Assembly (NCBI GenBank): GCA_026391455.1
Contig: JAPLEH010000062.1
Span: forward strand, 62,001-126,000
DNA length: 64,000 nt
Source of the DNA: Bacteroidota bacterium
Lineage (GTDB): Bacteria; Bacteroidota; Bacteroidia; Chitinophagales; Chitinophagaceae
Reading direction: 5' to 3'
The notes below the pieces were generated by a model. The model did no database searches. It was not told the DNA's origin and saw only the letters and a list, made by a program, of their open reading frames with translations. Below, piece by piece: positions 44,861 to 64,000 of this stretch (the stretch's first letter is position 1; each line of letters begins with the position of its first letter). Both the position numbers and the translations under genes were made by a program.

Positions 44861-45532
44861 TCAGGCAACCAGGAGTCCGTCGGTGAGTGAGCCGGCAATA
44901 GCAAAAGATCTCGCTGCCGGCAGCTCTTCTTCGATCTGTTTTAACAATCCATCAAATACGAAATGGGGCGCCTTCTCTTTAATTTCCCTAAGCCATGTGG
45001 TGATCTCGGGGTTGCTCAAACCGCGGATCATCCATTTGTTATACAAGGCCAGTTTTTCCGGCACAATAGCCGATACGATACGCATGGTCAGTTCGTGCAG
45101 TTCAGCATCGGAATAATAACGCCAGAGTATCTGATTGATCACATCTTCTTCACGGGCCATATGATCGAGATTGAAAACCATAAAGGCCACGAATGCAATA
45201 TTTAATTCCTGTCCGGCCAACACGGCGTCACCGGTTGTTTCCAGGGCATCCAGCGCCACTTGCAGTTGCACTCCCAGCGCATGGTCTTTTACATGCTCCT
45301 GTTCAAATGCATCTGCTACTGCGGGTTCCCAGCTCTTTACGGCCGAAAACACCTGATTGTCTTCTGTATCCGCATGTTTCTCAAAGAGAGCCAGCAATGT
45401 TTCTGTCTGTTTCTTTACAAAACGGCGTTCATCGCTATTGGCAAAATCAGTCTGTTGTATCAACAGCGCTGTTTCATACATCAGGGCACGGAGTCCCTTG
45501 TGAATCTGATAGAAAAGATTGTAACGTTTCAT
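44861..45532 (-). CDS. hemerythrin-like domain protein
   Basis: Helical; FEKHADTEDNQVF, FNLDHMAREEDVINQILW. Confidence 0.65.
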   Translation of the reverse strand: MKRYNLFYQIHKGLRALMYETALLIQQTDFANSDERRFVKKQTETLLALFEKHADTEDNQVFSAVKSWEPAVADAFEQEHVKDHALGVQLQVALDALETTGDAVLAGQELNIAFVAFMVFNLDHMAREEDVINQILWRYYSDAELHELTMRIVSAIVPEKLALYNKWMIRGLSNPEITTWLREIKEKAPHFVFDGLLKQIEEELPAARSFAIAGSLTDGLLVA

Positions 45533-47894: not shown

Positions 47895-47925
47895 GTATGA
47901 ATTGAGAAAAAAAGTGTATGAATTG
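47895..47925 (-). promoter_or_regulatory. LytTR-type direct repeat, site A (two perfect copies)
   Basis: GTATGAATTG-N11-GTATGAATTG on + strand, 21-bp period. Confidence 0.6.
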
Positions 47926-47998: not shown

Positions 47999-50900
47999 TT
48001 GAAAAAAAGTGGCCCATATCTTTTCTTGTTCCTGCTCATGAGTGTGCAGTGTATGGCACAACTGGCCAATAAGCCGGAACGTCAATATATATTCAACCAT
48101 TATACGGTTTCCTCCGGGTTATTATCTAATCAGGTAAACAATGTGGTGCAGGACGAAGAAGGCTATATCTGGATCGCCACAGCAGAAGGGTTGCAGCGAT
48201 ATGATGGTAACAAATATGTTTCATTCCGACATGCTGATAATACGCCCGGAACTTTGCCCTCCAACTTCGTGCAATTTTTGCGGATGGACCGTAATAACAA
48301 TCTGTGGGTTGTATTCCCGGGAGGGCATATTGGTATTTTTGACCGGAAAAAATTCATATACCGGGAAGCCGACATCAATCCTACGCTGGTAAAAACCAAA
48401 TCTGAAGTTATTCAGCAGATCCTTACTGATGATAAAGGAAATGTATTCATCCATTATGGAATGAAGGAAATCCTGGTCTACAACAAAGCCCTGAATAAGT
48501 TTGTATCCGCCAGCAGTTACTTGAAATATCCGAAAGACTGGATGATCACTGATCTCATTCACCAGCCCGGTAGCCGGAAGTACTGGCTGAGTGTACGCAA
48601 TGCGGGTTTTGTTGTATTCGATGAGGCAACGGGTAAGCTCAGCACTGCTGAAAAGAATATTTCAGGTGATCCGTTCATAGAACGATATCGAAAACTGCAA
48701 AACATGTACGGTTTTCACTTTGACAAAAAAGGCCGATTCTGGTTCATGTATTGGGATAATTCTATACCGACCATATATTGCTATGATATCCGCTCGAATA
48801 CACCTGTGCTGGAAGGTTATGAAATAAATTCTTACCTGCAGCATTATCATACGATTGATGATTTTTTCGAACAAAAAGACGGCACGATCTGGATACGCGG
48901 AACGCCCGTTCTGGCAAAATACCTGGAAGATGAAAAAAAATTTCAGTTTGTCAGCAATGGCTTCATGAATGAACAAAGCATCCATTATGAAATTGTAATG
49001 GACATGCAGGAAGACCGGGAGAATAATCTGTGGGTGTCCACAGATAACAGCGGGTTATACATGTTCAATCCAGCAAATGAACATTTCCAGAATATATCGC
49101 ATATCAACAGGCAGATCAATAAACCCGGTGACGGAGACCCGATGTCATTCCTGTATACCAGATGGGGTACTATATTATGTGGGGTATGGGGCAATGGTAT
49201 TTATCATTATGACAGTAATTTCAATCCCATACCAACGAATATCAAAGGAATCGATAACAACCTGGGGCCCACAGTATGGAGTATGTGCCTTTCCAGGGAC
49301 AGTAATACGATATGGATGGGTGCACAACCCGGTATATGGAAAGTGGATCAAGCAAAGCGAAGTGCGGTGCAATACCACCCCCCTACGCTTAAAGACCGAA
49401 CCATACGGCAGGTAACAGAAGATCGTTTTGGCAATCTCTGGATCGGCACCCACGGTCAAGGAGTTTTTAAATGGGATGCCAAAGCTGGAAAAACAGATTT
49501 CAATGCAGGCATCAGTCACTTTTCAGCCATACCAGACGGAATTGCAGGTAATATCGTACGTGATTCAAAAGGTTATATATGGATCACCAGCAGCAATTCG
49601 GGCCTCTATATGGTAGACCCCGCTACGGACAAGATCGTTCTTCACTTTGGTGAAAAGGAAAAAAAACCTTTTCAGTTACCCGAACCCGCTGTGTCTACCA
49701 TATTGGAGTACAACGACACGATAATGCTTATTTGTACAGGCACTGAAATGCTGGGTTATGACCGGAAAAATATCCGGCTTTTTAAAATTGCAAATCAGGG
49801 TATGATCTCTGGTTTTATTGCTGCCATGCAAAGAGACCGTTCAGGGCTGGTATGGCTAACCACAACCAACGGACTGTACCGGTGCAATATTCTGAAAAGG
49901 GTGTTTGTACGGTTTGGAAATATTGATGGAATAAATAGTGAGCACTTTTGCCAGATATCAGCGTATACATTGCCGGATGGCCGTATGTTATTTGGTACAA
50001 CCCGGCAATTTATTGTATTCAATCCCCAAACAATAAAGTTTAACGAAAGTAAACCTGACCTGAGAGTGACCATGTTCAAACTGGAAAACAAGGCTTTATT
50101 GGTGGATTCATTGTTGCAGTTGAAAGAACTAAATCTTGGCTACCGGAGTAATTCGATCGTCATTTCATTTTCCACAATGACATTTACAAGCGCCTACGCT
50201 ATAAAATATAAACTGGAAGGATTGGACAAAGATTGGAAATTCGCAGATAAAACCAATGAAGCGATTTACAGTTATCTTCCACCGGGCAATTACAAATTCA
50301 GAATGAGGAGTGTGGATCAGGAAGGCAATGAGCTGGAAGAAACCATACCAATCCTCATACGAATTAACCCGCCATTCTGGAAAACCTGGTGGTTTTACTC
50401 CCTGCTGGTACTGGTGGCAGGAGGTTTGCTCTATTGGTTCGACCGTGAACGGATGCGTCGTAAAGAATCCATTTACCGGATGAGAAGTAATATAGCCGAT
50501 GATTTGCACCAGGAGTTGAATACAGCGTTGGGAAATATCAACATCCTGAGTGAGATGGCCCGGCTGAAAGCGGATTCCGAACCGGAAAAATCAAAAGAAT
50601 TCATCGAGCAGATACATAACCGTAGTCATACTATGATGATCGCAATGGATGATATTATGTGGAGTATCAGCCCTGAAAACGACAGCACAGAAAAATTATT
50701 GCTCCGGTTAAAGGAATATACTGACGCGTTGAAAAACAGGTACGGCGTTTCGATTGAGATTGTGATGGATGAAAAAGTTAATGTATTACCCCTCAATATG
50801 AAACAACGGAAAGACATCTTCTGGCTTTTCAAAAACGGGATCGGCAATGCGGTAATGACCGGTTGCAGGGATTGCCGGATATCCATCAGCTTTGAGAAAG

Positions 50901-51073
50901 GTATCCTCCTGTATGTACTGGAATCAGATACCACCTGCTGCGATCTTGTACAATTGAATAACCTGCGCCAGCGTAAGGAGCTGTCGGATAAGCTGAAAGA
51001 AATAAATGCTGTTCTTGACATGCAATCGAGCAAGAACAGCATTGTATTCAATTTACAGATACCCCTTACATAA
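47999..51073 (+). CDS. two-component regulator propeller sensor (Reg_prop/Y_Y_Y/HisKA_3) with degenerate ATPase domain
   Basis: VQDEEGYIWIATAEGLQRYDG repeats; Y_Y_Y YKLEGLDKDWKFADKTNEAIYSYLPPGNYKFRMRS; DDLHQELNTALGNINILSEMA; no DNGxGF/GxGLxNM boxes. Confidence 0.88.
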   Translation: MKKSGPYLFLFLLMSVQCMAQLANKPERQYIFNHYTVSSGLLSNQVNNVVQDEEGYIWIATAEGLQRYDGNKYVSFRHADNTPGTLPSNFVQFLRMDRNNNLWVVFPGGHIGIFDRKKFIYREADINPTLVKTKSEVIQQILTDDKGNVFIHYGMKEILVYNKALNKFVSASSYLKYPKDWMITDLIHQPGSRKYWLSVRNAGFVVFDEATGKLSTAEKNISGDPFIERYRKLQNMYGFHFDKKGRFWFMYWDNSIPTIYCYDIRSNTPVLEGYEINSYLQHYHTIDDFFEQKDGTIWIRGTPVLAKYLEDEKKFQFVSNGFMNEQSIHYEIVMDMQEDRENNLWVSTDNSGLYMFNPANEHFQNISHINRQINKPGDGDPMSFLYTRWGTILCGVWGNGIYHYDSNFNPIPTNIKGIDNNLGPTVWSMCLSRDSNTIWMGAQPGIWKVDQAKRSAVQYHPPTLKDRTIRQVTEDRFGNLWIGTHGQGVFKWDAKAGKTDFNAGISHFSAIPDGIAGNIVRDSKGYIWITSSNSGLYMVDPATDKIVLHFGEKEKKPFQLPEPAVSTILEYNDTIMLICTGTEMLGYDRKNIRLFKIANQGMISGFIAAMQRDRSGLVWLTTTNGLYRCNILKRVFVRFGNIDGINSEHFCQISAYTLPDGRMLFGTTRQFIVFNPQTIKFNESKPDLRVTMFKLENKALLVDSLLQLKELNLGYRSNSIVISFSTMTFTSAYAIKYKLEGLDKDWKFADKTNEAIYSYLPPGNYKFRMRSVDQEGNELEETIPILIRINPPFWKTWWFYSLLVLVAGGLLYWFDRERMRRKESIYRMRSNIADDLHQELNTALGNINILSEMARLKADSEPEKSKEFIEQIHNRSHTMMIAMDDIMWSISPENDSTEKLLLRLKEYTDALKNRYGVSIEIVMDEKVNVLPLNMKQRKDIFWLFKNGIGNAVMTGCRDCRISISFEKGILLYVLESDTTCCDLVQLNNLRQRKELSDKLKEINAVLDMQSSKNSIVFNLQIPLT

Positions 51074-51076
51074 AGA

Positions 51077-51835
51077 TTATTTTCCCATCCACTTTTTGAA
51101 ATCGCTTACTTTCTCCCGGCTTACAAGCGCCTCTTTGTCTACAACAGGCTTTAGACCGAGTATAAGGCGGTTACCAAAATAATCATCGATCTTTTCAATA
51201 CTGTTAACTGACACAAAGAAAGAGCGGCTCACACGAAAATAAATAGCGGGATCGAGCATTTCTTCCAGTTCATCCATGGTATAGTCCACCACAAATTTCC
51301 GGTTGTCGGTGGTCTTAAAAAAATTGAGTCTCCCGTCGCTGTAGAAATAAGCGATCTCGCCGATTTCAACCGATACAAGCTTTTGTCCGTGTTTCACCAG
51401 AAAACGCTTGCGGTAATCTTTCGGTTGCAATTTTTGCTGCAGCTCCTTTACCAGTACATCGAGGTTTACATCCGGGCCCGTACGCATTTTCTGAAATTTA
51501 TCGAGAGCCGCTTTTAGTTCTTCTTTCTGTATGGGTTTTAACAGATAATCCACACTGTTCACTTTAAAAGCTTTTAATGCAAACTCATCATACGATGTGG
51601 TGAATATGACCGGGCTTTTTACGTCCGTAAGATTAAAAATCTCAAAACTCTGTCCGTCGGCCAGTTCTATATCCATCAGGATCAGGTCCGGTTGCGGGTT
51701 ATCCTGCAGCCATTCCACCGTGGACTTGATACTGTCTGTAAATCCCATTACTTCTGCGTCGGGACTAACCGCCTCGAGCGTTTTTTGTAATTTCTTTACG
51801 GCCAGTTCTTCGTCTTCTACAATTAATATTCGCAT
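51077..51835 (-). CDS. LytTR family response regulator
   Basis: Receiver LIVEDEELAVKKL, DLILMDIELADG; LytTR domain RFLVKHGQKLVSVEIGEIAYFYSDGRLNFF...FRVSRSFFVSVNSIEKI. Confidence 0.94.
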   Translation of the reverse strand: MRILIVEDEELAVKKLQKTLEAVSPDAEVMGFTDSIKSTVEWLQDNPQPDLILMDIELADGQSFEIFNLTDVKSPVIFTTSYDEFALKAFKVNSVDYLLKPIQKEELKAALDKFQKMRTGPDVNLDVLVKELQQKLQPKDYRKRFLVKHGQKLVSVEIGEIAYFYSDGRLNFFKTTDNRKFVVDYTMDELEEMLDPAIYFRVSRSFFVSVNSIEKIDDYFGNRLILGLKPVVDKEALVSREKVSDFKKWMGK

Positions 51836-51852: not shown

Positions 51853-52914
51853 TTATAGTTGAGGTGCATTTTTATTGTTCCAGATAAGCGGCAATACCAC
51901 GGTAAAATTCTTGCCATCCTCCATGACCCGGAAGCCGGGTTGCCGGAGGAGGTCGTACTTAGCTCTTATATTATCAAGCCCCACTTTATTACTTGGCGCC
52001 TGCACAGTTCTGCGCTGCAGGTTGTTGTTCACTACCAGCTTATTGCCAGCCGTGGTAAAAATATCAATCACAAGCGGCTTATTCTTTGACAATACATTAT
52101 GTTTTACGACATTTTCCACCAGCAATTGCAATGTAAGTGAAGGCAAAAGGTAGGGATTATACCGTTTATCGATTTCAATGTTGATCCGAACTGCTTCTCC
52201 GTGACGGGTCTGAAGCAACTGGTAATAGGATTCGATAAACCGGATTTCACTTTCCAGTGTACCGACGCCGTCTTCATTCTTACGCAATAAATAACGGTAC
52301 ACTTTGCTCAGTTCATTCAGAAACTTTTCGGCGCGCGGTTTATCCACAGCTATCAGAGAGGAAAGCGTATTGAAGCAGTTAAACAAAAAATGCGGATTCA
52401 CCTGGTTCTTCAGGGAATCAAATTCATTTTTAACCGACAACTCCTGCAATGTTTCCTTTTCGGCTGCATACTCCTTGTACTTATTGAATGCAAAATCGGC
52501 CTCATACAATGTTTCGAATACCATGTTAACAGAAAGCCCAACCAGTAAGCCTTTTATCAGATCCGCATTCTCCAGTTCATAACCCAGTATATGAAAAGTA
52601 TCATACACCCAGAAGATGAGTAAAATACTGGGTGTCATTACGAAGAGAACGATCAGTGATTTCAGGGTAATACGCTGACGGCTCTGGTGCAGCCCGGGAT
52701 ATTTTTTTTCCACATAAATATCATAGCACACATGTGAATACCAGGAAATAAATCCGATCACAAATAACAGGGGAAATGATACAAGCCAGATGCGGTAATC
52801 AGACCAGAATTGTTGTTTATATAAAATCAGGTTTACGATCACATCGATCAATGGCATCGAAAAGAGGAAAGAGTACCATTCCAGTTTCGGGGGTCGTATC
52901 AGTCGAAGTTTCAT
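51853..52914 (-). CDS. LytS-type sensor histidine kinase (His_kinase family)
   Basis: LKNQVNPHFLFNCFNTLSSLIAVDKPRAEKFLNELSKVYRYLLR. Confidence 0.92.
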   Translation of the reverse strand: MKLRLIRPPKLEWYSFLFSMPLIDVIVNLILYKQQFWSDYRIWLVSFPLLFVIGFISWYSHVCYDIYVEKKYPGLHQSRQRITLKSLIVLFVMTPSILLIFWVYDTFHILGYELENADLIKGLLVGLSVNMVFETLYEADFAFNKYKEYAAEKETLQELSVKNEFDSLKNQVNPHFLFNCFNTLSSLIAVDKPRAEKFLNELSKVYRYLLRKNEDGVGTLESEIRFIESYYQLLQTRHGEAVRINIEIDKRYNPYLLPSLTLQLLVENVVKHNVLSKNKPLVIDIFTTAGNKLVVNNNLQRRTVQAPSNKVGLDNIRAKYDLLRQPGFRVMEDGKNFTVVLPLIWNNKNAPQL

Positions 52915-53969
52915 ACGGCCACCTCCTTTTGTTGAAACAGCAATGGCACCATGATCTGCCGTACCCGACCTGTTTCGGTGATCAGAATTCGTTTATCGCC
53001 GAGTAATTGGTACTTGCTTACCAGGTTGTCCAGACCGGCTTCCGTATCAAAATCATCTTTAATGAGTTTCGGTTGAAGATTATACGAAAAGACCAGTTGG
53101 CCTGGTTCCCCAGTAATATGGATAACGAGTGGGCTGGCCTTCTGTATACTGTTTTGCGTAAAGGCATTCTCAATAATGATCTGCATTGTTAATGCAGGCA
53201 CATACAAATTACGTGATGCCGGGCTTATATTGGTGATCAGTTGGAGGCCACTGCCATATCGGGCCTGGAGAAGGTAGGCATAGGAATCCAGGAATTTCAG
53301 TTCTGTATCCAGGGTAACCAGGTTATCGTCTTCCCCGCGCAGCATATAGCGGTACACTTTGCTCATTTCATCCAGGAATCGTTCGGCTACATCCCCCTCC
53401 TCACTGATGAGGCTCGAAAGTGAATTGAGACTGTTGAAAAGAAAATGGGGATTGACCTGGCTTTTTAAACCCTGCAACCTGCTTCTGCGATAAGCTTCCC
53501 GCAGTTCGTCCGTTTCCTTTTGTTTTACTTTCCAGCTTTCGTACCGGGCAATGCCTTCATGCAGAAAAGTGAGGAATATATTGATGATTCCCAATCCGAA
53601 ATAGGCCCAAACAAAACGGTCTTCATTGACCTGGTAATTGAAATAAGAAACAGAATGGAAGAGACTGAATAATGCAAGCAGGAAAAGACCCGACATAATG
53701 AGAAAGGAAAATATCATTATTGTCATTCGCCGGGTAACCTGAGATTCATTGGGGAAACGATTTTTCATCAGTACGGCCACTCCGCCGCAAAGAATAAAGT
53801 AGAGCGAAAAACAGAGGCCCGTAACCAGAGTGGCTGTCAAAAAAAAGCGAAGTGATTCGAAATACCGTGGCCCAAATGCTGAGCTATTAATGGCAAGTGT
53901 GAATGGCAATACCACCAGCGGCATTACCACATAGTCTTTGGACGAATATCGGGGCAGCGTAATCTTCAT
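52911..53969 (-). CDS. LytS-type sensor histidine kinase, tandem paralog
   Basis: LKSQVNPHFLFNSLNSLSSLISEEGDVAERFLDEMSKVYRYMLR; 4-nt overlap with downstream paralog. Confidence 0.92.
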   Translation of the reverse strand: MKITLPRYSSKDYVVMPLVVLPFTLAINSSAFGPRYFESLRFFLTATLVTGLCFSLYFILCGGVAVLMKNRFPNESQVTRRMTIMIFSFLIMSGLFLLALFSLFHSVSYFNYQVNEDRFVWAYFGLGIINIFLTFLHEGIARYESWKVKQKETDELREAYRRSRLQGLKSQVNPHFLFNSLNSLSSLISEEGDVAERFLDEMSKVYRYMLRGEDDNLVTLDTELKFLDSYAYLLQARYGSGLQLITNISPASRNLYVPALTMQIIIENAFTQNSIQKASPLVIHITGEPGQLVFSYNLQPKLIKDDFDTEAGLDNLVSKYQLLGDKRILITETGRVRQIMVPLLFQQKEVAV

Positions 53970-54036: not shown

Positions 54037-54067
54037 GTATGAATTGAGTAAAACCGGGGATGAATTG
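54037..54067 (-). promoter_or_regulatory. LytTR-type direct repeat, site B
   Basis: + strand GTATGAATTG-N11-GGATGAATTG, 67 bp upstream of ATG 53969. Confidence 0.65.
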
Positions 54068-54819: not shown

Positions 54820-56142
54820 TCATTTCATGATAAGCTCGTATTGCTCCTGCTGGCCTTTATGTTTGCTGGTAAGGCCTTCCGCAGAATTGGTGAACTGCAC
54901 CATCTGATCGTAGATACTCTGCACCGCTTTAGCCACCTGCGCCTCGGTATAGGAGCCATCGATCAGGTTTTCATTTTTCTCTTTTCCCCAATGGTAGCTG
55001 CCGATAAAATCATTGAATTCGCCAAAAGCCAGTTTGGTACGGAGTTTCAGGCTGGTCCACAAAATGGTACGGGTAACTGCCTCTCTTTTCTGAATAGCAT
55101 ATTCAATTGCTTCGCGAAATTTATTCAACGCACCCAGTCCCACTTTCTCTCGCATTTCGCCGGAAACAACAACAGGTAATGCATCGGCCTGTTCTTTATG
55201 CCACTTCGCAATGGCCATATATAAAGATGTATAAAATTCGTCGGCGATACGGGTGCTGTTACCCACCTGCTTTGATGCTTCAAGCATCCGCTCCAGACAA
55301 CGACCCAATAGCTGTTGTATTGAAACCTGGTAATTTGTTTTGTTCCGCTCTGCCATCGATTGCTCAAAGGCTTTATCATCCCGGGGAATGGTCTTATTGG
55401 TCATGTATGATTTCAGTTCAGCCTCTTTCTCCGCATCACTCATTTTATTATACTTTTCCCGGTAGGCCGGATCGTTCATCATTCGCTTCATCATTGCATT
55501 CATACCCGGGTCAGACACGCCGCTGTAAGCACCGGTATTATTCAATACATTTTCTTTCATATTCCTGGCAGCATTTTTCCGTTCTGCTTCACTCATTTTC
55601 ATAAATGCATCCGCTCCGCCCATTTGCTGCACTACGGCGTTTTTATTCGCTTCATTTTTCGCATCTCGCATCATCTGATCTTTACCGGTCCGTTGTTGTG
55701 CCACATGTTGCGCCTCCATATCGCTCAGTTGTTTCATCATTACTTCCACCCTGTCGATAAAAGCCCGGTACTTCTGATCGAAGTTGACCGTTTTGGCTTC
55801 CGGGAGGGAAGGTACCGGCGCGGGAATATCTTCAAATACCGGAAATAAATTCATCTCCCCGGGCTTATGCTGATAACCCGGTCTGTATTCTTTTGCCATT
55901 CGTGCATCTTCTTTTTGCAATGCCAAAATAGAGGCAAAACGGGCTGCCAGGCCTTTATCCAGTGCGGCTTCAAACTCTTTGAAATCACGCTGCCTTTCCA
56001 GTTCTGCCGCCCGTTGTATTTGTTTGAACTTCACAAAAAGACTATTCATCATCTGATCAGTGATTACAGACTGTTGCTGACCATGTGAGATGGGGTAAAA
56101 TGCCAGTAGAGCCAATGTCAGGATTATGATTCGCTGTTTCAT
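54820..56142 (-). CDS. hypothetical secreted, helix-rich protein
   Basis: Signal peptide; charged helical body. Confidence 0.6.
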   Translation of the reverse strand: MKQRIIILTLALLAFYPISHGQQQSVITDQMMNSLFVKFKQIQRAAELERQRDFKEFEAALDKGLAARFASILALQKEDARMAKEYRPGYQHKPGEMNLFPVFEDIPAPVPSLPEAKTVNFDQKYRAFIDRVEVMMKQLSDMEAQHVAQQRTGKDQMMRDAKNEANKNAVVQQMGGADAFMKMSEAERKNAARNMKENVLNNTGAYSGVSDPGMNAMMKRMMNDPAYREKYNKMSDAEKEAELKSYMTNKTIPRDDKAFEQSMAERNKTNYQVSIQQLLGRCLERMLEASKQVGNSTRIADEFYTSLYMAIAKWHKEQADALPVVVSGEMREKVGLGALNKFREAIEYAIQKREAVTRTILWTSLKLRTKLAFGEFNDFIGSYHWGKEKNENLIDGSYTEAQVAKAVQSIYDQMVQFTNSAEGLTSKHKGQQEQYELIMK

Positions 56143-56203: not shown

Positions 56204-56234
56204 GTATGAATTGAACAAACCACAGGCTGAATTG
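56204..56234 (-). promoter_or_regulatory. LytTR-type direct repeat, site C
   Basis: GTATGAATTG-N11-GGCTGAATTG; 32 nt to TAGTTTTG (56164..56171). Confidence 0.65.
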
Positions 56235-57894: not shown

Positions 57895-58503
57895 TTATTG
57901 TTTTGTCTCGGGAGCTGCCGCCAATCGGGGAGCTGGCACTACATTTTCTACGGGTTTGGTGGTTCGGAGATAGGCAAAGATAGATTTCAGATCCTCCTCG
58001 GGCATATTACGATAAGCAAACCAGGGCATTGGAGGCAACAAATCGCGGCTATTCTCCAACCCTTTGTACTTTCCTTTGCGGATCGCTGTAAGGAATTGTT
58101 CTTCTGTCCAGTTGCCTATACCGGTTCCATCGCTGGTTAAATTTGCAGCAAAAGACACCCCCCAGGGGCCTGCAGTGGCGGTAAAGTCGGGTGAGAACAT
58201 GGTCCATCCCTTTTGTATTTCTCCGGTATTCACTTCGGGCAACACATTCTTTGATGTATATCCGGAAAGACGGAGTTCGGGAATCAACTCAATGCCATTG
58301 GGCCCCATTCGTTTGGGTGAGTGACAATCGTCGCAACCGACCGAACTGACCAATTGCTCTCCCCGTTTTACAAACCATACAGAATCTTTTTCAACATTTT
58401 CTTTCTTTTCGGATTTGTCAAAACCAGGTCCACCGTTGCAGGCGGCAATTAAAAGAGTTACTGTTAACACTGCGCCTGACAGTAGCAGAATTGTTTTTCG
58501 CAT
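57895..58503 (-). CDS. c-type cytochrome lipoprotein
   Basis: Lipobox LIAACNG; VGCDDCHSPKRMGPNG haem-binding CxxCH; LLPPMPWFAYRNMPEEDLKSIFAYLRTTKP. Confidence 0.88.
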   Translation of the reverse strand: MRKTILLLSGAVLTVTLLIAACNGGPGFDKSEKKENVEKDSVWFVKRGEQLVSSVGCDDCHSPKRMGPNGIELIPELRLSGYTSKNVLPEVNTGEIQKGWTMFSPDFTATAGPWGVSFAANLTSDGTGIGNWTEEQFLTAIRKGKYKGLENSRDLLPPMPWFAYRNMPEEDLKSIFAYLRTTKPVENVVPAPRLAAAPETKQ

Positions 58504-58513
58504 AATGATTGAT

Positions 58514-58723
58514 TTAATGATTAATGACTGATGTTATGTTGGTTTCATAAATAAACATATCTGGGTTGTGACTGCATCCTGAAAAATCAGTCGAGTCAGC
58601 AACCTTTTTCTTTTCCGACCTGTGCAGTCTTTTTGCTTCCCTTGATGGATAGGAACTTGCCGCCGCCAGCACCGCAAATGCAGCGATGAGTATCAGTGAG
58701 GCCGCTTGTATTACTTTTTTCAT
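58514..58723 (-). CDS. small (69-aa) secreted protein
   Basis: MKKVIQAASLILIAAFAVLAAASSYPSREAKRLHRSEKKKVADSTDFSGCSHNPDMFIYETNITSVINH. Confidence 0.6.
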   Translation of the reverse strand: MKKVIQAASLILIAAFAVLAAASSYPSREAKRLHRSEKKKVADSTDFSGCSHNPDMFIYETNITSVINH

Positions 58724-58789: not shown

Positions 58790-58820
58790 GTATCAATTGA
58801 ATGAAGTGCTGAATGAATTG
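58790..58820 (-). promoter_or_regulatory. LytTR-type direct repeat, site D
   Basis: GTATCAATTG-N11-GAATGAATTG; 32 nt to TAGCTTGC (58750..58757). Confidence 0.6.
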
Positions 58821-58900: not shown

Positions 58901-59293
58901 CTATACAACCTCTTTATCCTGCAGCAGATAAAGACCGGAGAGGCTGCTTTTAACTGCCTGCTTCTTTCGCTTAGCCACAGATACCATTTCATTATTAAGC
59001 AATACAGCTACTGGGGTTCGTTGCTGCTTAAAACTTTTTATGAACGTACTGTTTACCAGGTGACTCCGATGGAGCCGGACAAACCCGCGTGGTGCAAGCA
59101 ACTGTTCAAACCAGGCCAGCACTTTGGCAACCACTATGGTGCTGCCATCGCTGAAAAAAAGTTTACTGTAATTGCTGATGGCTTCTACACGGATAAGCAG
59201 GCTGCTGTCAATGTATTCATGGCCTTTGCAGGTGGGCAGCAGAAACCGGAAGGGGTAAGCACCGGCTGATGTATGATGATGGATGAATGACAT
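58901..59293 (-). CDS. stand-alone LytTR DNA-binding domain protein
   Basis: LLIRVEAISNYSKLFFSDGSTIVVAKVLAWFEQLLAPRGFVRLHRSHLVNSTFI; no receiver. Confidence 0.82.
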   Translation of the reverse strand: MSFIHHHTSAGAYPFRFLLPTCKGHEYIDSSLLIRVEAISNYSKLFFSDGSTIVVAKVLAWFEQLLAPRGFVRLHRSHLVNSTFIKSFKQQRTPVAVLLNNEMVSVAKRKKQAVKSSLSGLYLLQDKEVV

Positions 59294-59310: not shown

Positions 59311-60915
59311 TTATTCCAGTGTATTGTAACGCCAGATATAGTATCCGGCATTATACTGCATCGTACTGCCAAACACGGCTGGTGAAAGATTGCAGAACCC
59401 TCCCGTATAAATATTGTGCTGGTAGGGGTCTGCACAAATAGTACTTACATTATCATTACCGGTACTACCCTGTTGCTGTATCCATTGAAACTGAGTAATC
59501 CCAGGATTAGGAGCAAACATCCGGGTGATATACATTTCATATCCTCCCCGGGGTATCAGTGGATAGCTGATATTGGCAACCGTTAAGGCAGTGGAAGAAA
59601 GAGAGTTGGCAGAAATATATACAAAGGATCGTGCATATGAAATACCGGTGATACTTTCAGAATTGGATGATTGAACTGCATATCCGGTGGCAGTACCACT
59701 CACCGGTATTCGTACAAGCAAGCCGTCTGTACCACCCAGATTTGTTAATGCAGACGATCCGATTACGGTGTTCCCTCCAAAATACTCTCCTGCCACAAAT
59801 AAAGTACCCGTCTCATCGCAGGTTATCGCTTTTCCCGTTTCGTAAACGGTAGCTACACCGTACTGTTGTGCCCAGTTGCAGTTACCATTTTCATCCAGTT
59901 TCAATACCAATAACTGGCTGCCTGCCCCTGGGTTGGTTAGTGTGATGGCATTGAGGGACAACGAAGATGATTCAAATGAGCCAGTTGCAGCAAGTGTATT
60001 ATTATACCATAAAACATCGTTCAGTTTATCATCAGCATTGCCAGCAAGCTGCTTTGTCCATTGCACAGTCCCTGCAGCATTATATTTAACAATAAACGCA
60101 TCGTACATACCTGTATTATTATTAAGCGAAAAGCCGGGTGCAACATTCAGGATGGAACTGGTAAAATTTCCAGTTAAGTACACATTTCCGTTAGCATTTG
60201 CAGCAAGACCCCCGCTTCGAATCACACCCGTACCTTTAATTGCATTCATCCAGGACAGATTGCCGTTCACGTCCAGGCGTACCACTACCAATGCTCCGGG
60301 ATCGGTTGTGGAAACAGAGCTGCCACCGATAGTTAATGTGCCGGTGCCGAATTCACCATAGGCATATACAAAGCCGTTTGCCCAGGCCAGTTGACGAAAG
60401 CTTACCAGTGAAGAGCCGGATGTTTGCCGGGCCCAAAGCGGTTTGCCGTTTTTGTCATACTTGGTTATAAAGCCGTTCTGAGCACTGGTATTTACCAGCG
60501 TATAGGGGCCAAATGAGGTTGCCTGGTTATACCAGCCAGTCACATAAATATTGCCGGCACTATCTGCACATATATCGCTGATGCTGGCATTCGTACCCGT
60601 GCCATCCCCATACACAACCGATTCACCCAGTGGCCCAGAGGGTTCCTTTATCTCACCGGCAAGCCTGATCCAGCGGGTGCCATTATAATATCGCAGGCAG
60701 TTATAGGTCGTATCATATACCTGTAATCCTGCTGCCGGATTTGTGATGGCAAGAATATTATCATAATTCATACGCGGTGGAAGAAAGCCCTTGTTTTGAC
60801 TCTGTACATCCAGCATCGCACTGGGATCTGCCATAGTACCCGTTGTGTTAATTGCTACCTGGGCATACACAGATTGCAATGCAAGGTTTAACAAAAGCAA
60901 AATCAATAATCGCAT
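59311..60915 (-). CDS. secreted SBBP-like repeat protein
   Basis: Signal peptide; repeats DICADSAGNIYVTGWYNQATSFG, GGLAANANGNVYLTGNFTSS, KYDKNGKPLWARQTSG. Confidence 0.7.
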   Translation of the reverse strand: MRLLILLLLNLALQSVYAQVAINTTGTMADPSAMLDVQSQNKGFLPPRMNYDNILAITNPAAGLQVYDTTYNCLRYYNGTRWIRLAGEIKEPSGPLGESVVYGDGTGTNASISDICADSAGNIYVTGWYNQATSFGPYTLVNTSAQNGFITKYDKNGKPLWARQTSGSSLVSFRQLAWANGFVYAYGEFGTGTLTIGGSSVSTTDPGALVVVRLDVNGNLSWMNAIKGTGVIRSGGLAANANGNVYLTGNFTSSILNVAPGFSLNNNTGMYDAFIVKYNAAGTVQWTKQLAGNADDKLNDVLWYNNTLAATGSFESSSLSLNAITLTNPGAGSQLLVLKLDENGNCNWAQQYGVATVYETGKAITCDETGTLFVAGEYFGGNTVIGSSALTNLGGTDGLLVRIPVSGTATGYAVQSSNSESITGISYARSFVYISANSLSSTALTVANISYPLIPRGGYEMYITRMFAPNPGITQFQWIQQQGSTGNDNVSTICADPYQHNIYTGGFCNLSPAVFGSTMQYNAGYYIWRYNTLE

Positions 60916-60987: not shown

Positions 60988-61018
60988 GTGTGAGCTGTTA
61001 TATCCGGGTAATGAATTG
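60988..61018 (-). promoter_or_regulatory. LytTR-type direct repeat, site E
   Basis: GTGTGAGCTG-N11-TAATGAATTG; 32 nt to TATTTTGT (60948..60955). Confidence 0.5.
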
Positions 61019-61058: not shown

Positions 61059-61089
61059 CAATTCATACCGTCTTTCGGGCAGTTCAATA
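61059..61089 (+). promoter_or_regulatory. LytTR-type direct repeat, site F
   Basis: CAATTCATAC-N11-CAGTTCAATA; 32 nt to GATTTTTG (61122..61129). Confidence 0.6.
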
Positions 61090-61155: not shown

Positions 61156-61878
61156 ATGAAAGTTGTAGTGGTGGAACCTGATAAGAAGGTTGCGAAAAAG
61201 ATGATACGGATGCTTTACTCGATCGATAAAAGCATAGATGTATTGGCTGTGCTGAGTAATATGCCTGCTTTGCTTCGTCATACAAAAGCCGGGATAATGC
61301 CCGATCTTGTACTTATTAACCGAAATCTGATAAGTCATATTCAGCAGTCGGTTGAGGCAAAACTGATCATCCCCGGAGGCCAAACCCCGTTGGTGTACCT
61401 CGCCTACCGGATCAATAATCTCAAACATCTTGAAAAGCAAATTTCCAATACAAAATCATTGATCAGCAGCAGTGATCTTTTACAGCATGTTGCAGTCAAT
61501 AATTATCCGCTTGCAAATACTCCAGCTTCAACCGGGGAGGCAAAAAAGAGGTTTCTGGTATCTCAACAGCGGAAATTTTTATCCATACCTGTGGAAGAGA
61601 TTGCCTATTTCTTTTCTGATAACCGGTTTATATTCTTTACTACATTCTCGAATAAAAAATACCTGATCGAATACCGGATGGATGAACTGGAAAACCTGCT
61701 CGACATGCAGGAATTTTTCCGGATCAACCGGTCATATCTGGTATCCATCCGCTCTATAATTTCTATACAACCCTATCCGGGAAACCGTTTCCGGCTTTCG
61801 CTGAATCCCGCATCCGACAAAGAGATCATCGTAAGCCGGGAAAGACTTCCCGCATTCCGCGCCTGGTTGGGTGAGTAA
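61156..61878 (+). CDS. LytTR family regulator with degenerate (pseudo-)receiver domain
   Basis: MKVVVVEPDKKVAKKM; PDLVLINRNL in place of the phospho-Asp motif; LytTR RFLVSQQRKFLSIPVEEIAYFFSDNRFIFFTTF...FRINRSYLVSIRSIISI. Confidence 0.88.
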   Translation: MKVVVVEPDKKVAKKMIRMLYSIDKSIDVLAVLSNMPALLRHTKAGIMPDLVLINRNLISHIQQSVEAKLIIPGGQTPLVYLAYRINNLKHLEKQISNTKSLISSSDLLQHVAVNNYPLANTPASTGEAKKRFLVSQQRKFLSIPVEEIAYFFSDNRFIFFTTFSNKKYLIEYRMDELENLLDMQEFFRINRSYLVSIRSIISIQPYPGNRFRLSLNPASDKEIIVSRERLPAFRAWLGE

Positions 61879-62130
61879 TCATTTTTTCAACTCAGTTACG
61901 GGGAGAAACAACTTAGGTATGAATTCATGCAACTCCTGCACATCCGTTCGTGCATATCAAACACACGCTTTATGTTTGAATCACTAACAGGTGTTAATGC
62001 CTGTTGTTGAAATCCAATATCCATGATTGTTTGGTTCACCGGGATAAAGACCAGCAGGCAGGATGCTGTACTGGTCTTTCCCGGCGAACAGCAGTATAAT
62101 AAAAACCCTTCACCCTAAAAATCCAACAAT

Positions 62131-63504
62131 ATGAAACCCCAACACTTCCCGGTTCTTTGCTGCCTGCTATTTTTTTTATTGCTTCATTGCCATGCCTTTC
62201 CGCAATGTATCAATGCACCAGTGGTAACCTGCAGTGCCGGGCCTGCAGCGATAGATGGAGAGTCGCTCCCGGCCGGCGTTACCAAATGGTTCAATGGTGC
62301 TACTCCCACATTCAATGACTATACTCTCAAAGGAGGAACCCTGATTGTTTGCAGTGATCTTACCATTGATAAATTCACGATGGATTCCGGCACACTCTTC
62401 ATACAGCCCGGCATCAAACTGGTGATCGGCAATGGTATTGGCGCCGGCCTCGTACTCCGGGGCAGCAGCGCGATTTATAATTATGGCACGCTGGAGATTC
62501 AACGAAATCTTTCACTGGAAAATGGCTGGAGCAGTTCGGCCCGCCCCAATATCATTTGCAATGCCACACCAGCATCGGTCTTGTACATGCAGAATCAATA
62601 TTTTGTTATCAACAATATACATTCCTGGTTTATCAACAAAGGGAAGGCCTATTTCCACGGATTGATCACAGACCCGCAGGCTGCTGCAGGCAGTGTATGC
62701 CTGGGTACGGGCAGTGAAACTAAAATGACCGTATTATATAACAAAGTGAGGAACAGCTATGCAGCTCCGGATGGTTCAGCCTGTGTACATGTGAGTGAAT
62801 TCTCCCAATTATGGGATACACTCACGCCCTATCCCCAGGTAAATATGTGTCTGGGAGCCGGACATCGCACCGATTCATCCTGTATGCTCTGGGGATGCAA
62901 ACCGCTGGCCTGGGGAAGAGCCAATTTGTTTCGCGGATGTACGGGATGCGTCGCTATTCAATTTTTACCTGTCGGGCGCTTCCTGTCGTTTGACGTTCTG
63001 CAAGCTACTGTTTCCAATGAATTGCGTTGGGAGTTGGAAGGCGCCACACCCGGCGGTGTATTCACGATTGAACGCTCTGGAGATAACACCCATTATTCAA
63101 GAGTTAAAAGTATCACGCTGAACACCGCCTATCCCGGCACCCATTATTCAGAATGGGATCATACTCCACCGGCAGGCCTAAGTTATTACCGGGTAAAATA
63201 TGCAGAGCCGGGTGAACAGGAGGTTGTGTATTCGCATACGCTGCGTACGGAAAGAGTGTCTTCAGCATCTCCCCGTATATGGCCAAATCCGGCAACAACG
63301 GAAGTGCATCTTTCATTGCCCTGCAAGGGAAGTGTTCAAATTACTATACATGATATGAACGGGAAAAAAATAATGGACCAATTCACTGTAGCGGGTAACG
63401 GATCCATTAAGCTCTCAATCCCTTCCAGTGCTGAAAAGGGGTTATACATTTTAACGGTTGTTTGCGCAATGCAACAATACAAACTGAAATTTATCCGGAA
63501 CTAA
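62131..63504 (+). CDS. secreted protein with T9SS type A sorting domain
   Basis: Signal peptide; RIWPNPATTEVHLSLPCKGSVQITIHDMNGKKI...YKLKFIRN. Confidence 0.82.
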   Translation: MKPQHFPVLCCLLFFLLLHCHAFPQCINAPVVTCSAGPAAIDGESLPAGVTKWFNGATPTFNDYTLKGGTLIVCSDLTIDKFTMDSGTLFIQPGIKLVIGNGIGAGLVLRGSSAIYNYGTLEIQRNLSLENGWSSSARPNIICNATPASVLYMQNQYFVINNIHSWFINKGKAYFHGLITDPQAAAGSVCLGTGSETKMTVLYNKVRNSYAAPDGSACVHVSEFSQLWDTLTPYPQVNMCLGAGHRTDSSCMLWGCKPLAWGRANLFRGCTGCVAIQFLPVGRFLSFDVLQATVSNELRWELEGATPGGVFTIERSGDNTHYSRVKSITLNTAYPGTHYSEWDHTPPAGLSYYRVKYAEPGEQEVVYSHTLRTERVSSASPRIWPNPATTEVHLSLPCKGSVQITIHDMNGKKIMDQFTVAGNGSIKLSIPSSAEKGLYILTVVCAMQQYKLKFIRN

Positions 63505-63545: not shown

Positions 63546-64000
63546 ATGAAACAAGCGTTATTGCAGCAGTACCGAGCGCTGAGCGGTGAACTGCACGCGG
63601 TCCGGTTCGCTGGCATGTCGGCATTGGAAATAGTGGAAGAAAGTTTCGCAAGGGCCATGGATCATTGGAACAGTATTCGCCGTTGGGTGGAGGGGTATAC
63701 ATTTACCGGAATAAAGGAAGAGATCATTTTTTTTCGGGATATCAAACCGCTTTTTACATCGATTCTTGATTATTGTGTGTTGCAATACGGAAGTCTTTTG
63801 TTTTGCCCGGCTGAAGAAAATGCCGAACGTATCCTGTACTGGAAAAAAGAGCGTAAGCGGGTGCAGTTGTTCTTTACTGCAGAAGAAAAATTCTGTACCT
63901 ATTATTTCTCTCATAACAATAGCATGGATGATTCCTACTTTGTGCGGTTAAGAGAAGAGGCCATGATTCCACGTATGCAGCGAAGTTATCCGGATGGCAA
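63546..64000 (+). CDS. RteC-domain-like protein, 3'-truncated by the window
   Basis: Open frame from ATG 63546 to window end: ...GIKEEIIFFRDIKPLFTSILDYCVLQYGSLLFCPAEE.... Confidence 0.6.
   Translation, partial: MKQALLQQYRALSGELHAVRFAGMSALEIVEESFARAMDHWNSIRRWVEGYTFTGIKEEIIFFRDIKPLFTSILDYCVLQYGSLLFCPAEENAERILYWKKERKRVQLFFTAEEKFCTYYFSHNNSMDDSYFVRLREEAMIPRMQRSYPDG

Follow-up and report, generated by a model that had tools for sequence, protein, structure and literature searches.

The window analyzed here, 64,000 nucleotides long, spans bases 62001-126000 of a 128-kb contig in a 5.5-Mb genome whose closest relatives by sequence are Chitinophagaceae. Near its end lies a gene for a LytTR regulator with a degenerate receiver, which we named PRL and which is followed by the gene of a surface protein:

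61156..61878, plus strand: PRL, an open reading frame of 240 aa, LytTR regulator with degenerate receiver
62131..63504, plus strand: surface protein of 457 aa, secreted, mostly beta, T9SS-sorted, with a T9SS C-terminal sorting domain
63546..64000, plus strand: RteC-family gene that runs beyond the window end (239 aa in full), common to the three closest loci

PRL is composed of a pseudo-receiver (residues 1-97), a linker (98-130) and a LytTR domain (131-240). The LytTR domain had been described as intact in the initial annotation, and Pfam agreed, with PF04397 matching residues 140-238 at 3.4e-21 (75.7 bits against a curated cut-off of 22.6). Pfam returned no receiver match, and LytTR was the sole domain reported for PRL. 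No histidine kinase gene adjoins PRL within the window, the nearest being those of a sister system about 7 kb off.

The register of the receiver was set by an alignment of PRL with its orthologs and canonical LytTR regulators, and by profile comparison. The PRL family profile matched canonical receivers with 99.8% probability in hhalign (E 2.4e-27, 101 columns), and the first 60 residues were gap-free. The alignment places Asn55 at the phospho-Asp position, just as the initial annotation had read it from PDLVLINRNL against PDLILMDIEL of the sister. Its two other placements were ruled out by both methods. VEPD, taken as a conserved N-terminal acidic pair, aligns without a gap to VEDE; E7 alone is kept, the second, directly Mg-binding acid (D8 in the canonical register) is Pro8, and D9 stands opposite the Glu just after the pair. 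VYLAYR, taken as the Thr/Ser strand, pairs with the alpha4 region (DEFALKAFK), and the conserved Thr position is Gly74 in AKLIIPGGQ. Beyond the initial annotation, Lys94 is kept; it is followed by Q instead of P, so there is no KP. Three of the five catalytic residues are lost (P8, N55, and G74), E7 and K94 remain, and the C-terminal part of the receiver is shortened. A sequencing slip was excluded as the cause, since 23 orthologs in other genomes show changes at these positions too. PRL therefore has neither the full set of catalytic residues nor the adjacent cognate kinase of a canonical response regulator, and its receiver homology without that set is that of an Asp-less or pseudo-receiver.

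The AlphaFold model of PRL had a mean pLDDT of 81.6 (74-75 for the other four models). The receiver part is predicted to fold as beta1-alpha1-beta2-alpha2-beta3 followed by two strands plus one short helix, with residues 99-126 as a disordered linker. Foldseek matched the model to LytTR structures (3d6w at E 7.7e-9) and to full-length ComE, and on the receiver side the fit to a receiver covered about 50 residues only. PRL departs from other Asp-less receivers in its lack of HMM recognition and, according to the model, of the full (beta-alpha)5 fold. The C-terminal half, including the alpha4-beta5-alpha5 face through which many receivers dimerize, appears to be remodelled, a call that rests on a prediction from a shallow alignment.

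Orthologs were searched in 399 Chitinophagaceae genomes at a match cut-off of E<=1e-40. Matches were obtained in 24 genomes, all of which hold a PRL on alignment; in one of them (locus L106) the search also returned the sister protein. The phospho-Asp is absent in 24/24 members (N in 18, S in 5, R in 1), as is the second acid Asp, and the Lys is missing in 22 and kept in 2. Among 50 distinct canonical relatives every catalytic position was intact, and 0/50 were without the Asp. The Pfam receiver model matched 4 of 23 PRL members at E<=1, with a best value of 0.045. In an order-level search with a pseudo-receiver profile, the matches inspected beneath the three true members were canonical and had the Asp, and a plasmid search retrieved distant LytTR proteins only.

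Close pairs had a dN/dS (Nei-Gojobori) of 0.02-0.05 in the receiver part, compared with 0.00-0.015 in the LytTR part; a few distant pairs gave higher values, which are unreliable as dS is near saturation. The low values in close pairs indicate that the pseudo-receiver is maintained. By these comparisons PRL is a family and no one-off, and would represent a degenerate copy long retained beside the surface-protein gene. A functionless, decaying duplicate would account for the lost catalytic residues and for the patchy distribution (24/399 genomes). Yet both domains show low dN/dS and no stops, and promoter site and partner gene are conserved, so that selection and synteny already speak against decay, which in our view is barely credible.

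The initial annotation had also suggested control independent of phosphorylation. As far as sequences can speak to it, this is strongly backed by the lost residues, the Asp gone throughout the family and the purifying selection. Residual control by phosphorylation, through weak chemistry or deamidation of Asn to Asp, could draw on the retained Lys94 and E7, and deamidation at this position is on record (PMC4395418). However, the second Mg-binding acid and the Thr are lost as well, six members have Ser or Arg in place of the Asn, and the Lys is missing in most members, which makes this reading highly improbable.

Among the canonical regulators of the genome, PRL is closest to the sister, with 31% identity over the full length:

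51077..51835, minus strand: sister, a canonical response regulator of LytTR type whose catalytic residues are all present (Pfam receiver and LytTR)
51853..52914, minus strand: LytS-type histidine kinase (His_kinase, PF06580), adjoining the sister
52911..53969, minus strand: second LytS-type histidine kinase (Pfam), first gene of the sister operon

In a tree of LytTR domains only, PRL and sister-type proteins fell into one supported clade (95/92), within which PRL formed a single group with weak support (79/54). Three LytTR differences are fixed from sister to PRL (N171->I159, S203->N191, and hydrophobic->K/R213). Sister orthologs were present in 95/399 genomes, namely 24/24 with PRL versus 71/375 others (Fisher 9e-17), and by genus in 11/11 with PRL versus 28/93 (8e-6), counts that are phylogenetically non-independent. 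PRL without the sister occurred in 0/24 PRL genomes. These data fit a history in which a sister-type gene was duplicated and PRL then came to depend on the sister, an order of events that we infer.

The initial annotation had assigned PRL its own repeat pair (site F), which was confirmed at 61059-61087 with a period of 21. Five similar sites, likewise of period 21, precede other genes of the region:

47898..47925, minus strand: site A (CAATTCA repeat), about 100 bp ahead of the propeller sensor gene at 48026, in opposite orientation
54040..54067, minus strand: site B (CAATTCA repeat), 70 bp ahead of the sister operon
56207..56234, minus strand: site C (CAATTCA repeat), 64 bp ahead of gene 54820-56142
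58793..58820, minus strand: site D (CAATTCA/CAATTGA repeat), about 69 bp ahead of the ATG (58723) of a short ORF
60991..61018, minus strand: site E (CAATTCA...CAGCTCA), 75 bp ahead of the divergently oriented gene 59311-60915
61059..61087, plus strand: site F, direct repeat of LytTR type (CAATTCAT...CAGTTCAA), with the ATG of PRL about 69 bp downstream

All of these sites but A are 64-75 bp ahead of an ATG, the distance of site D being counted from the printed sequence to the ATG of the short ORF, which precedes the cytochrome c gene 57895-58503. The exact motif CARTTCAN14CARTTCA occurs seven times in the 5.5-Mb genome, and four of these copies lie in 13.2 kb of the window (47.9-61.1 kb), a clustering for which a rough scan bound gives a chance of 2e-6. 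With one mismatch allowed, the same interval holds the six period-21 sites A-F. In 48 loci (640 kb), CARTTCAT pairs with <=2 mismatches were found 50 times at period 21, whereas every other period from 15 to 30 had 0-7; overlap between loci inflates the count, not the contrast between periods. Such pairs precede PRL and sister kinase operons, as well as cytochrome-like, hemerythrin-like and small lipoprotein genes. Upstream of PRL, 18 loci have the end of the pair 64-70 bp from the ATG and six have it at 109-115 bp, and the match is poor (5 mismatches) in locus L103.

The sister-operon repeat is also found in two Chitinophagaceae loci around canonical regulators, without a PRL match there (L042 and L046). 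Since sister promoters bear this motif even where the locus has no PRL, the sister would be the simplest binder of site F. The cross- or autoregulation through site F envisaged in the initial annotation gains support from the conserved position and the sister-promoter motif, which favour cross-regulation by the sister over autoregulation.

A homolog of the surface-protein gene, whose link with PRL goes beyond the initial annotation, adjoins PRL in 23/23 testable loci; the 24th (L091) was left out of this count as its contig ends too early, and in one locus (L109) the pair is divergently oriented. When the whole surface protein was searched at order level, the T9SS C-terminal domain dominated the results. 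Two distant homologs of the surface protein have no PRL alongside. A PDB search with the surface-protein model gave Fn3/Ig-like partial matches only, which do not indicate a function. The invariant linkage makes the surface-protein gene the simplest candidate target of PRL. Two promoter elements lie between the genes:

61924..61954, plus strand: site G, TTCATGCA and TTCGTGCA paired at a period of 23, in the interval from PRL to the surface-protein gene
61971..61978, plus strand: -7-like element downstream of site G, where TATGTTTG matches the Bacteroidota TAnnTTTG

Site G is the only TTCRTGCA pair in that spacing class in the genome. Across the loci, the regions between PRL and the surface-protein gene share TTC[AG]TGCA repeats, mostly of period 21, and after them a TAnnTTTG-like element. 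As a set, these promoters carry LytTR-type TTCNNGCA pairs and triplets at 20-22 bp, with 28 mismatches versus 60.5 ± 2.8 in shuffles for pairs and 58 versus 107.8 ± 3.4 for triplets. None of 300 dinucleotide shuffles (0/300) was as good, and the consensus was taken from RcoM1 (PMC11347149), independently of these loci. The site of the window has a period of 23, not 20-22, and alone is non-significant; no clear motif was found in the surface-protein promoters of the Ser clade (L105, L108, and L111). In most surface-protein leaders a TCCAATA element is conserved shortly 3' of the -7-like element (about 62013 in the window), and in the leader of the window an inverted repeat AAAGACCAG...CTGGTCTTT (62040-62085) may form a hairpin. 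The generic LytTR consensus [TA][AC][CA]GTTN[AG][TG] gave only a modest excess at period 21 and was uninformative for single sequences.

The surface-protein repeats are unlike CARTTCAT, in step with the fixed LytTR differences, which suggests that the DNA specificity of PRL may have changed. This bears on the idea that PRL is a competitor of the sister, sitting unswitched at the same CARTTCAT sites and damping the sister regulon by negative feedback, with the surface-protein gene as one more shared target. The common ancestry of the two LytTR domains, the single motif at sites A-F and the presence of the sister in every PRL genome would all be expected of such a competitor. On the other hand, the three fixed substitutions and the different repeat of the surface-protein promoters, TTCNTGCA, suggest a changed specificity, and the constant pairing with a single gene points to a dedicated target; we consider competition rather unlikely.

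We lean toward the reading that PRL is a paralog of the sister whose receiver can no longer be phosphorylated, which has moved from phosphorylation to transcriptional control and drives the surface protein. The sister kinase/regulator system, on its own signal, would act on site F in the PRL promoter. PRL would be competent for DNA binding as made and be controlled by its amount, and would act on the LytTR-type repeats before the adjoining gene of the T9SS surface protein, whose expression it would most likely activate. The half-receiver it has kept would probably serve folding, dimer or protein contacts. Against this reading, the sister or another of the roughly ten LytTR proteins of the genome might bind both sites.

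Alternatively, the pseudo-receiver could be a sensor in its own right, a small molecule or partner protein on the half-receiver switching DNA binding. The selection on the receiver part, with its family-specific invariant residues D24, I27, and R85, would suit such a role, and other pseudo-receivers bind ligands or partners (PMC12632262). But no ligand, pocket or linked partner gene was found for PRL and the product of the linked gene is exported, and we hold a sensor to be unlikely.

Asp-less receivers are well known, with Asn as a frequent substitute (PMC4395418), and include RitR, ChxR, and HP1043 (PMC4395418; PMC12632262). Like PRL, these regulators join a receiver-derived N-terminal domain without the phospho-Asp to a DNA-binding domain, and RitR shares the Asn at this position. 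Unlike them, PRL has a domain missed by the Pfam receiver model, with a C-terminal half that looks remodelled, and its output is LytTR, which has 0 occurrences as an output in the two reviews (PMC4395418; PMC12632262). With canonical LytS/LytTR systems (the sister operon; AgrA, ComE, and LytR) PRL has in common the LytTR domain and direct-repeat sites about two helical turns apart, whereas it has no adjoining kinase and no catalytic receiver. RcoM1 and CoxC, LytTR regulators whose sensor domains are of other kinds (PMC11347149), also have a LytTR output independent of Asp phosphorylation, as the residues suggest for PRL. RcoM1 binds TTCNNGCA triplets with 12-13 bp spacing (PMC11347149), and RcoM1-like triplets occur in most surface-protein promoters here. 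CoxC has an identified MHYT gas-sensing domain, whereas PRL has a receiver remnant and no known sensor (PMC11347149).

In the open-access literature, no work joining LytTR with a pseudo-receiver or with Chitinophaga was found, nor any description of a LytTR family with a short, HMM-invisible receiver that is tied to its parent system and to one T9SS protein. We tentatively propose that PRL may be a new LytTR family of this kind, a duplicated response regulator put under transcriptional control of the parent system in place of phosphorylation and dedicated to one T9SS protein. The switching of pseudo-receivers is described as an open question (PMC12632262), for which PRL is a testable case, as parent regulator, paralog, both promoters and putative dedicated target lie within 16 kb and PRL-free relatives are natural controls. 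It also suggests that surveys based on receiver HMMs overlook such domains.

Several other genes of the region were noted. A LytTR-only protein of 130 aa without a receiver (58901-59293, minus strand) lies 2 kb from PRL and is the third LytTR gene of the region. The two-component propeller sensor (48026-51073, plus strand), which converges on the sister, has a Y_Y_Y domain and a weak HisKA_3 match and no ATPase domain by Pfam, and the promoter of its homolog in locus L045 contains a CARTTCAT-like repeat. The short ORF between site D and the cytochrome gene (58513-58723, minus strand, approximate) encodes about 70 aa. The cytochrome c-like gene (57895-58503, minus strand) and a hemerythrin-like gene (44861-45532, minus strand) have counterparts elsewhere with a period-21 repeat upstream, hinting that the sister regulon may be redox- or gas-related.
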